Below, piece after piece: positions 14,126 to 60,275 of a stretch of DNA of 64,000 nucleotides (position 1 is its first letter; each line of letters starts with the position of its first letter). Source of the DNA: Candidatus Nanoarchaeia archaeon (lineage in GTDB: Archaea; Nanobdellota; Nanobdellia; SCGC-AAA011-G17; JAFCDX01). The notes under the pieces were generated by a model. It had not been told where the DNA came from. It saw only the letters and a program-made list of their open reading frames with translations, and did no database searches. The stretch lies in the NCBI GenBank assembly GCA_028716945.1, contig JAQUOT010000002.1, forward strand, positions 124,001 to 188,000, in the 5' to 3' direction. The position numbers and the translations under genes were made by a program.

Positions 14126-14208
14126 AAATTTAATTATTAAAGTATATTCTATAAAATATATATTCTAACAAATTGCAACTTGCAAGATGTGCGCGCCAGA
14201 TTTATAAA
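14126..14208 (+). promoter_or_regulatory. Element shared by both LAGLIDADG genes (copy 1)
   Basis: 35 nt at 14152-14186 are identical to the complement of 60217-60251, including TTGCAACTTGCAAG. The next 22 nt (TGTGCGCGCCAGATTTATAAA region) differ by one indel and one substitution. Weaker similarity extends to 14126. TTTATAAA (14201-14208) is the TATA box and lies 22-29 nt before the ATG at 14230, so the message is leaderless. Two TTGCAA palindromes sit just upstream and look like an operator. Confidence 0.75.
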
Positions 14209-14229: not shown

Positions 14230-15246
14230 ATGGGAATCAGAGAAAGAGTAGTTTTTCCTAAAGGTAAACAAAAGCAATTTTTAGATTATATTTATAAGTT
14301 ATCTAATCTGCCTTGGAAAGAGTTAGGGTTGAAATTAGACGTAAATTCAGGAACTTTATTTCATACTTATAAATTTGAACAATCCAATATACCCTATAGT
14401 TTGTTTTTAAAAATATGTGAAACATTTAATTTAGACTCTAATGAAATTTTAAAACAAAATGATGCTAAAATTAGTAATGAAGACAGATCTTACCCAAGAA
14501 AAACGTTTGGAGAAACCAGGAAAAAATTAAGAGAAATAAATATAACTTTTATTAACAAAAATAATATTTTAAACAATGAGGGAATAATCTTTTCTAAGAA
14601 AGATGAAGAAAGAAAAATTAAATTACCTAATAAAATTACTCCAGAACTAGCAGAAGAAGTTGGAATGCATTTAGGAGATGGTTTTTTGTCTGGAAGAAAG
14701 ACTGAATATAGATTAAAAGGCAATAAAGATGAAAAAGATTATTATGATACTTTCATTAAAGGGTTGTATAAAAGCTTATTTAATATAAATTTAAATATAA
14801 AAGAATATGAAGATACTTATGGCTTTGAAATGTATTCTAAAGCAATTCACACATTTAAATCAAAAGTTTTGGGTTTACCTATTGGAAGAAAAATAAATGT
14901 TAAAATTCCAGATATCTTTAAAATAAATGATATAACCATATTAACTTCTTTATTAAGGGGACTTTATGATACAGATGGTTGTATTACTTTTATGTCTCAT
15001 TATAACCATAAAAAGTATTATCCACATATTACTTTTGCTCAAAAATCAGATTTTTTAATAAAAGATATTTATAATATATTGAAAATGTTAGGATTTAATC
15101 CTTGTTATTTCAAGGGGGAAGGCTATTCTAGTCTTAGTTTATATGGTTATAATTCCTTAAAAAGATACATGGATTTAATAGGATTTCACAATCCAAAACA
15201 TTTAAGAAAAGTAAATAACTGGAAATTATTATATCCAAAACTATGA
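14230..15246 (+). CDS. Free-standing LAGLIDADG homing endonuclease
   Basis: 338 residues from the ATG at 14230; the in-frame start at 14173 lies upstream of the TATA box and is rejected. The N-terminal third contains an HTH-like unit ('WKELGLKLDVNSGTLF'). Two LAGLIDADG helices follow: 'AEEVGMHLGDGFL' and 'LLRGLYDTDGC', each with the catalytic aspartate. The C-terminal 'YMDLIGFHNPKHLRK' resembles the end of the second endonuclease at 59495. It is not inside an intron or intein. Its TGA (15244-15246) overlaps the first bases of tRNA-His. Confidence 0.88.
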   Translation: MGIRERVVFPKGKQKQFLDYIYKLSNLPWKELGLKLDVNSGTLFHTYKFEQSNIPYSLFLKICETFNLDSNEILKQNDAKISNEDRSYPRKTFGETRKKLREINITFINKNNILNNEGIIFSKKDEERKIKLPNKITPELAEEVGMHLGDGFLSGRKTEYRLKGNKDEKDYYDTFIKGLYKSLFNINLNIKEYEDTYGFEMYSKAIHTFKSKVLGLPIGRKINVKIPDIFKINDITILTSLLRGLYDTDGCITFMSHYNHKKYYPHITFAQKSDFLIKDIYNILKMLGFNPCYFKGEGYSSLSLYGYNSLKRYMDLIGFHNPKHLRKVNNWKLLYPKL

Positions 15247-40690: not shown

Positions 40691-41632
40691 ATGAAAAGAA
40701 GAAATTTTATTGAATGCTTGGCTTTGGTTGGATCTAGCTGTTTAATGCCAAAGCAAGTTTTAAAGGAAAATAAGAATATATGTAAACCAGATGATGGAAT
40801 AGTTGATATATCTTTTTCTACATTAGAACTAGAAGAACTAATAAAAAAAGATTATAAAAGAGAATTTAATAATAAAGATAAAAACATTATAAAAGATATT
40901 AATTTAAGGAATTTTTTAAGGGATAAAATTACAGAACAAAACAATTCTTATTTATTTGGAAAGTGTTTAGATGATGCTGTTTCTAATTTCATAATTAGAT
41001 TTAATAAATTATATTCTCAGATTAGAAATAGTTGTTATGAACCTCTCCAAGATGGAAATTTAGATTATGCTTTAGTAATGCCAAAGAGTTTTTTAGAAGA
41101 TGAAATGGATATATCCATAGAAATAGATAAAAAAGATTTATTATTAAAAGTTTATCAGAATTTTAATTCTCAAAATTTATTATTGCTTGAAAAACCAGTT
41201 GCTTTAGGCAAGGGAAAAACCATAGTAAAGGATAAAGAAATGAATTTCAATACTCCCTCTGGAACATTTTACATTAAAAGAATAGTGACATATCCTTGGT
41301 GGTATCCTCCTGAATGGTCAGATGCTAAAGGACCAATTAAACCTGGAAAAAATAATCCTTATGGAATTTGGATGGCAGAAACCTGTTCTAATTTAGAAAT
41401 AGAAGGATATGAAATAAATTTAAAAGGGGATGATGGAATAAGAATACATTCTACAAATATGCCTTTGAGTATTGGAAAATATGCTTCTCATGGTTGTATA
41501 AGGGTGCATCCAGATGTTGCAGAAGAATTATTTCCAGCAATCTTGTATTATATTTATCATAAAGAACCTAAAACTAATAGCAGAGGAACTATTTATCCTT
41601 TAGAAAAAGTAATTGAAGTAAGAATAGAATAA
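40691..41632 (+). CDS. L,D-transpeptidase (YkuD domain)
   Basis: 313 residues. The N-terminus 'MKRRNFIECLALVGSSC' is twin-arginine-like with a lipobox-like C17. The YkuD catalytic motif is complete: 'IRIHSTNMPLSIGKYASHGCIRVHP' contains H near 252, S266-H267-G268 and nucleophile C269. In bacteria these enzymes cross-link peptidoglycan or anchor proteins to it. The middle (40-120) is helical and unrecognised. An archaeon without murein would need another acceptor, so this is likely of bacterial origin. Its last 46 nt are repeated at 41744. Confidence 0.87.
   Translation: MKRRNFIECLALVGSSCLMPKQVLKENKNICKPDDGIVDISFSTLELEELIKKDYKREFNNKDKNIIKDINLRNFLRDKITEQNNSYLFGKCLDDAVSNFIIRFNKLYSQIRNSCYEPLQDGNLDYALVMPKSFLEDEMDISIEIDKKDLLLKVYQNFNSQNLLLLEKPVALGKGKTIVKDKEMNFNTPSGTFYIKRIVTYPWWYPPEWSDAKGPIKPGKNNPYGIWMAETCSNLEIEGYEINLKGDDGIRIHSTNMPLSIGKYASHGCIRVHPDVAEELFPAILYYIYHKEPKTNSRGTIYPLEKVIEVRIE
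41582..41627 (+). repeat. 46-bp exact direct repeat, copy 1
   Basis: The last 46 nt before the end of the transpeptidase gene are identical to 41744-41789 (period 162 bp). The interval between copies holds a 13-bp inverted repeat with one mismatch (41650-41662 and 41685-41697). Confidence 0.85.
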
Positions 41633-41743: not shown

Positions 41744-41794
41744 AGAGGAACTATTTATCCTTTAGAAAAAGTAATTGAAGTAAGAATAGCATAA
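41744..41794 (+). pseudogene. 3'-end remnant of a second L,D-transpeptidase gene
   Basis: Reads 'RGTIYPLEKVIEVRIA' and stop, matching the functional gene's end ('RGTIYPLEKVIEVRIE'). No catalytic part is present. It is the tail of a tandem copy that was mostly deleted. Confidence 0.8.
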
Positions 41795-59359: not shown

Positions 59360-59462
59360 CGCCCCGGCCGAGATTTGAACTCGGGTTATAGCTTCGACAG
59401 AGCTTCACATTCTTGAAGAGATACTTCTAAGATTATGTGCTAGGCCACTACACAACCGGGGC
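59360..59462 (-). tRNA. tRNA-Asp(GTC) with about 30-nt intron in the anticodon stem
   Basis: Acceptor GCCCCGG/CCGGGGC, G73 (Asp-like), D-stem GTGT/GCAC, T-arm CCGAG TTCAAAT CTCGG. Loop CTGTCGA gives anticodon GTC. The 3' stem AGCTA needs TAGCT, which appears only after removing about 30 nt (59405-59434) between positions 27 and 28. That segment folds (CTT-GAAG with CTTC-AAG). It lies 32 nt downstream of the second LAGLIDADG gene. Confidence 0.85.
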
Positions 59463-59494: not shown

Positions 59495-60172
59495 TTATTG
59501 TTTTAATAATTTTACTCTTTCTAAATAATGGGTATGGGGAGTATAATAACCAAGTTTATTCCAAATAGCAATCTTTGTTAGGTGTTTTGGATTAGAAAAC
59601 CCAATAAATTTCATCCATTTTTTTAGATTATGTCTACCATATATATCAATTTGATATTGAATAAAAGTTTTATTACCTAAAGTTGTTAATTTTGTGTAAA
59701 TATTTGCTTTTATATTAAATAACTTTAAAAGATTTTTAAGTTCTTCAGTAAAATTTTTATTTGAAAAACTTGAAGTAATAAAAGGATAATTATGCTTTTT
59801 CTTTGTGAATGATATACTAAAATCAGTATCTGCAATCCCCCTTATAAAATTAGCTATGAGTTTTTTGTTCTTTTTTGCAAAAGTTGGAATTCCCATTGTT
59901 TTTGGTCCAGAAACTAATCCAAGAGATATTAATTTTTCTATTACACTTTTTGAACAAACAGAAAGAGCTATCGCATTTTTATTCTTATGTTTCCAAATTG
60001 ATGCTTCTTTATTAAATAAAGTTTTAATTAAAGGTTTAACATAATTTATTAAATAATCATAATCTTCTTCAGAATGGCCAGTGACTACAAACCTATAAGT
60101 TCCACTTTTACTATAGATATTTCCATCGCCCAACATAATACCAATAAATTCAGCTAATTTTTTCTTATCCAT
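59495..60172 (-). CDS. Free-standing LAGLIDADG homing endonuclease
   Basis: 225 residues. Motif 1 'LAEFIGIMLGDGNIYS' and motif 2 'LIANFIRGIADTDFSI', each with catalytic D. Ends with 'KKWMKFIGFSNPKHLTK', like the endonuclease at 14230. Lacks the N-terminal HTH extension of that protein. Leaderless from the shared element (TATA 60194-60201). Not within an intron or intein. Followed after 32 nt by tRNA-Asp. Confidence 0.9.
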   Translation of the reverse strand: MDKKKLAEFIGIMLGDGNIYSKSGTYRFVVTGHSEEDYDYLINYVKPLIKTLFNKEASIWKHKNKNAIALSVCSKSVIEKLISLGLVSGPKTMGIPTFAKKNKKLIANFIRGIADTDFSISFTKKKHNYPFITSSFSNKNFTEELKNLLKLFNIKANIYTKLTTLGNKTFIQYQIDIYGRHNLKKWMKFIGFSNPKHLTKIAIWNKLGYYTPHTHYLERVKLLKQ

Positions 60173-60193: not shown

Positions 60194-60275
60194 TTTATAA
60201 ATCTGACGCGCACATACTTGCAAGTTGCAATTTGTTAGAATATATATTTTACAGAAGATACTTTATTTAAATTTT
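60194..60275 (-). promoter_or_regulatory. Element shared by both LAGLIDADG genes (copy 2)
   Basis: Complement of 60217-60251 equals 14152-14186 exactly (35 nt). The adjoining TATGTGCGCGTCAGATTTATAAA (60194-60216) differs from copy 1 by one indel and one substitution. Similarity continues loosely to 60275. The flank also lies in front of the divergent gene at 60348. Confidence 0.75.

Follow-up and report, generated by a model that had tools for sequence, protein, structure and literature searches.

The window analysed here, i.e. the whole stretch of 64,000 nucleotides, contains two free-standing LAGLIDADG homing-endonuclease genes, one coding for a protein of 338 aa on the forward strand (14230..15246; PF14528, 28.7 bits with a cut-off of 22.5) and the other for a protein of 225 aa on the reverse strand (59495..60172; PF14528, 44.9 bits). 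Like other free-standing LAGLIDADG genes, both ORFs code for stand-alone LAGLIDADG_3 (Pfam) proteins located outside introns and inteins, whose cleavage activity and mobility are predicted properties. Each gene is preceded by a copy of a putative operator-promoter element. The first of 12 copies spans 14143..14208 on the forward strand (profile R1 74.6 bits, E 5.5e-21; alignment of 11 copies) and copy 2 spans 60194..60260 on the reverse strand (74.7 bits, E 5.0e-21). Copy 1 begins with an AT-rich block (14143..14167), conserved in the 11 copies, bearing two TATATTCTA words 16 nt apart (14143-14151 and 14159-14167). The block is followed by the tandem word TTGCAAC-TTGCAA (period 7; 14173..14185), proposed as the regulator-binding site, in whose place other families have different tandem words, by a GTGCGCG block directly upstream of the TATA box (14189..14195; alignment of 11 copies) and by the TATA box TTTATAAA itself (14201..14208), with the ATG 21 nt further on. 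The corresponding tandem word and TATA box TTTATAAA of copy 2 occur on the reverse strand at 60218..60230 and 60194..60201 respectively, the latter again 21 nt ahead of the ATG. As the TATA box precedes each ATG by 21 nt, leaderless transcripts are likely for both genes. The GTGCGCG block is rare in a window of 28.6% GC, where GCGCG occurs 4 times on the forward and 6 times on the reverse strand in 64 kb. An RNA structure at the element was rejected, the sole predicted hairpin being the word pairing with itself with zero compensatory changes.

Sequence comparison confirmed the 35-nt identity between 14152-14186 and the complement of 60217-60251 reported in the initial annotation, as well as the near-identity over about 58 nt, the stretch through TTTATAAA showing an extra T and a single C/T substitution. 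The looser similarity described further downstream extends through the ATG codons of both genes. The encoded proteins share 32% identity over 211 aa, which bears out the original statement that conservation is higher in the DNA element than in its genes. With ≤3 mismatches allowed, a 27-nt core matched the window at exactly two positions versus 0.00 in 100 dinucleotide shuffles, and the conserved unit is best delimited as 14143-14208 (+) and 60260-60194 (-), with the TATATTCTA repeats upstream and the TATA box terminal. Elsewhere in the window, a direct repeat of about 46 nt occurs at 41582-41627 and 41744-41789, 162 nt apart.

The genome, 803,636 bp on two contigs (C1 and C2), was then searched for the element. 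The first search returned 11 strong copies, which were aligned into profile R1, and the subsequent genome-wide profile search yielded 12 sites scoring 51-75 bits. The next best match reached 12.6 bits, thus indicating a sharply bounded set, and every one of the 12 sites ends in a TATA box. The initial annotation had described two genes with near-identical upstream DNA, which holds true within a larger set of 12 copies in the genome; it had also raised the question whether every further copy precedes a LAGLIDADG gene, and ten more copies were found but only 8 of the 12 do so (C2:138k and C2:184k in the window, C1:251k, C1:206k, C1:71k, C2:31k, C1:391k and C2:43k). Conversely, among the 12 free-standing LAGLIDADG genes of the genome, the element lies ahead of 8 and is absent from 4. 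The remaining sites precede the radA operon (C1:482k; an 89-aa ORF followed by RadA), an operon that comprises two microprotein ORFs plus a metallophosphoesterase and lies directly downstream of the Orc1/Cdc6 gene (C1:416k), an RNase_H_2-like ORF just below the Pfam cut-off (C2:242k) and a 279-aa ORF with zero matches in Pfam, NCBIfam and PDB (C1:268k). Two members of the 12-site set have no clear function. The copies are therefore not spread over many unrelated genes, as 8 of 12 belong to LAGLIDADG genes and at least radA has a functional tie to DNA breaks.

Some further features were observed around LAGLIDADG genes. An RT-16 RNA (RF03019) occurs upstream of two LAGLIDADG-element loci (L030:4789-4925 and L070:3701-3836, both on the reverse strand), and tRNA genes adjoin several LAGLIDADG genes (L031:2116-2265, L035:3566-3660 and L073). 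Positions 59361-59462 of the window (-) resemble by eye an intron-bearing tRNA, with no ARAGORN or Rfam call.

The element was compared across about 60 genomes of the same order, which is probably Woesearchaeales, since Candidatus Woesearchaeota and Nanohaloarchaea are, with other DPANN records, among the best named matches of RadA. Three other genomes of family f1 carry 2, 11 and 7 good copies, whose members are again radA (L076, L086 and L090), the phosphoesterase operon (L071, L084 and L089) and LAGLIDADG genes; a DEAD-box helicase stands behind the element once, in G002, and a similar ORF occurs in G029. What remains constant across the order is that a short word is directly repeated in tandem; where such a repeat is distinct from shuffles, it usually has a period of 7-9 and mostly ends about 11-18 nt before the TATA box. 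The two TTGCAA palindromes pointed out in the initial annotation are present in the window copies, but their palindromy is not kept in the relatives and is thus incidental, the direct repeat being what persists across families. The word varies between families and, within one genome, is common to radA, the phosphoesterase operon and many LAGLIDADG genes. The radA promoters carry CTGGACAC twice in f11, GCTTGCCA twice in part of f7, ACGCGTCT twice in G025, CACTTGCCACTTGCCA in f3, TGACATaagTGACAT in f9 and TTGGACGCA three times in G030, among others; by genome, the word is TTGCAAC in G000, GCTTGCCA in G054 and CACTGGACA in G013. GC-rich blocks similar to GTGCGCG occur in other families, and the AT-rich upstream block is found in the radA promoters of some of them but not all. 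A viral origin of the element was tried and rejected, one degenerate pattern giving zero matches in viral_contigs.

Two comparisons addressed the covariation of the words. The promoters of 59 free-standing LAGLIDADG genes of relatives, picked by the Pfam HMM only and with family f1 excluded, were ranked against the radA promoters of 16 families. The own-family radA promoter ranked first for 13 of the 59 versus 3.7 expected (block permutation p=0.0002), a result that depends on the chosen start codons, that of L314 having been corrected by eye, with the sequence seen, before the test. Examples are the LAGLIDADG genes of G054 with the radA word GCTTGCCAGCTTGCCAACCAC and those of G048 with AAAACAATTCTTATATCTCA. 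The region downstream of orc1/cdc6, occupied by the phosphoesterase operon in many genomes, was in turn matched to radA promoters with a local aligner not tuned to any motif. The own-genome radA promoter ranked first in 13 of 18 genomes of the first set and in 21 of 34 genomes from 14 families of the enlarged set (against an expectation of about 1.1; p≤2e-5, which is the floor of the permutation), the statistics of both comparisons taking genomes as exchangeable after family grouping, with shared ancestry only partly handled and most genomes fragmented; in 13 of the 34 the best match was not the own radA promoter. Genome-wide pattern searches gave 7 sites for the f11 word and 9 for the f7 word, while reversed-pattern controls gave 0. 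All 7 sites of CACTGGACACACTGGACA in G013 and G040 precede radA, LAGLIDADG(-like) genes or the ORF1-ORF2 operon, and all 5 sites of GCTTGCCAGCTTGCCAAC in G054 precede radA, LAGLIDADG genes or the phosphoesterase operon, so that 12 of 12 word sites in these three genomes lie ahead of radA, LAGLIDADG(-like) or ORF1-ORF2(-phosphoesterase) genes. Of the 4 sites of G026, two precede radA and the phosphoesterase, a third an HTH-like ORF, and the fourth is unassigned. Since the best match is the radA promoter of the own genome (21/34) or family (13/59) more often than expected, the covariation of the word across each genome is, at the level of sequence, the signature of a shared trans-acting regulator, to which promoter copying may add some within-genome likeness in a few genomes (G019 and G033).

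On these grounds, the element is probably the operator-promoter shared by a small regulon centred on homologous recombination. The autoregulatory operator suggested by the initial annotation is supported as regards the operator, which is discrete, TATA-linked and sequence-specific, with a word that shifts in concert; the autoregulatory part is not supported, as the element also precedes radA and the Orc1/Cdc6-linked operon, and repeat-type words are kept at these loci in genus g10 (G009 and G037), where PF14528 has no match. One DNA-binding regulator would read the tandem word just upstream of the BRE/TATA and, because of this position, would be more likely to help TBP/TFB, as an activator, than to block the start site. 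As the specificity of the regulator drifts, all its sites would follow. The regulon would respond to DNA breaks or replication stress, and the LAGLIDADG genes would have gained from the simultaneous production of RadA, as homing depends on recombinational repair of the break that they cut. The sharing of RadA's control by LAGLIDADG genes points to a common timing of cleavage and recombinational repair.

A candidate regulator is encoded directly upstream of the phosphoesterase-operon site, where an Orc1/Cdc6-like protein of 354 aa with AAA and Cdc6 lid regions is found at C1:415962-417023. Orc1/Cdc6 is present in 61 of 61 genomes and lies near the phosphoesterase operon in many families. Only one such gene was found in this genome, and the family's four genomes (G000-G003) did not yield the second paralogue of about 405 aa that most of the order possesses. 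In Sulfolobales, DNA-damage genes are under the control of the non-initiator Orc1 protein Orc1-2, which acts via the ANTTTC hexamer (PMC9738581), and by analogy we tentatively propose the adjacent Orc1/Cdc6 protein as the regulator. Both cases are archaeal and link an Orc1/Cdc6-type protein, here as a candidate, to DNA-damage promoters through a short promoter site (PMC9738581); in contrast, ANTTTC is absent from both strands of the window copies by eye, LAGLIDADG genes are the main members here and the tandem word varies by family. The genome-wide profile search found no element at the promoter of the Orc1/Cdc6 gene itself, and variation in the protein's winged helix showed no significant relation to that of the operator (partial r -0.13, p 0.10, n 18).

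The same neighbourhood could be explained if the sites were akin to origin recognition boxes, Orc1/Cdc6 binding the word at the origin and at scattered promoters so that regulation follows replication and not damage. The only Orc1/Cdc6 gene found in this genome is directly followed by one of the sites, but all 12 occupy promoter positions, each with its terminal TATA ahead of an ORF, and we consider this explanation unlikely. A sampled GC-skew profile, calculated for G008 only, gave no usable signal for a replication origin.

Copying of the promoter, either along with LAGLIDADG genes or by gene conversion, would make within-genome sameness a mere consequence of duplication. The two window copies and that at C1:251k are similar through the start codon, and about 100 nt are alike between the radA promoter and the orc-linked region in G019 and G033, so that the mobile promoter cassette put forward by the initial annotation may describe a means of spread. 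In most genomes, however, the loci share only a word of 15-30 nt plus the TATA box, with different flanks and spacers (G054, G007, G025 and G013), and the radA and phosphoesterase sites are recurring members in several families; copying as the whole explanation is thus quite improbable.

Autoregulation would have each LAGLIDADG protein bind the element to control its own gene, in the way I-TevI of phage T4 autorepresses by binding an operator that resembles its homing site (PMC2988022). The 8 LAGLIDADG genes behind the 12 sites and an extra N-terminal domain, putatively DNA-binding by eye, in several LAGLIDADG proteins are in line with this precedent, which likewise has an operator dedicated to the control of a homing endonuclease gene. 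The operator described here is instead shared with radA, the phosphoesterase operon and other host genes, and is not confined to the endonuclease's own promoter, and a near-identical site is common to proteins about 32% identical. Moreover, the two genomes of genus g10 returned zero PF14528 matches and retain repeat-type words at radA and at the orc-linked operon, which argues for an operator independent of LAGLIDADG proteins and makes autoregulation very unlikely.

An alternative-TFB promoter class, with GTGCGCG as a variant BRE and no separate regulator, would account for the block abutting the TATA box and for its GC-rich counterparts in other families, but it is disfavoured by the single TFB gene found in this genome (308 aa, two cyclin repeats), and the upstream tandem word is the most family-specific part, so that we give this class hardly any credence. 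Finally, the element is almost certainly not the cleavage site carried with the endonuclease genes, a possibility that the initial annotation had also raised. Proximity to these genes is the only point in its favour; divergent enzymes only about 32% identical would need one common target, and the element also stands in front of radA and other genes that encode no endonuclease, in every case at promoter distance ahead of TATA.

Taken as the operator-promoter of a recombination regulon, the element recalls the bacterial SOS regulon, in which LexA boxes serve as operators and the operator words differ between bacterial lineages. Here too, a common operator is found at the main recombinase gene and at other DNA-metabolism genes (the radA operon and other sites), and the operators vary together from genome to genome in the manner expected of a single regulator acting in trans; the difference is that no LexA was identified and that the site consists of a word directly repeated in tandem ahead of an archaeal TATA box. 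It is possible, although we advance this only with reserve, that a protein of the Orc1/Cdc6 family controls an SOS-like regulon in this DPANN order and that this regulon was joined in many families by selfish LAGLIDADG genes, which re-tune their promoters at each change of the operator word and time their breaks with the recombinase. Few archaeal DNA-damage regulons are known, and a limited open-access literature search returned no account of this regulon or of any DPANN DNA-damage regulon, nor a description of a shared host-type operator for free-standing LAGLIDADG genes. For an entire order, the analysis provides a predicted operator with its member genes and a candidate regulator, each of which can be tested in vitro. 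The results further bear on the persistence of homing endonucleases, since selfish DNA-cutting genes appear to be plugged into the control of the host recombinase on which they depend, and appear to follow the host control sequence as it diverges between lineages.

Further observations concern the genes behind the element. Conserved microprotein ORFs of about 33-39 aa lie between operator and phosphoesterase (L034, L071, L084, L089 and L317), the second ending like EAAFMEGY; L089 has the first microprotein only, and in L317 the ORFs remain with no phosphoesterase seen directly downstream. RadA lies in very long frames of 798-1376 aa in eight genomes (G004, G016, G019, G022, G029, G033, G034 and G059), and the LAGLIDADG matches sharing these frames in several genomes suggest inteins in RadA itself. 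The leaders of radA operons (e.g. L127, L128, L130, L149 and L221) carry a conserved TGAAATAAAAnCCGAAAGGAA, sometimes in two copies, just ahead of the ribosome-binding site; this leader had no Rfam match in the five loci searched. Compensatory changes occur at the two base pairs enclosing its GAAA loop (85.7% paired, 13 double-change cells, 0/500 shuffles).
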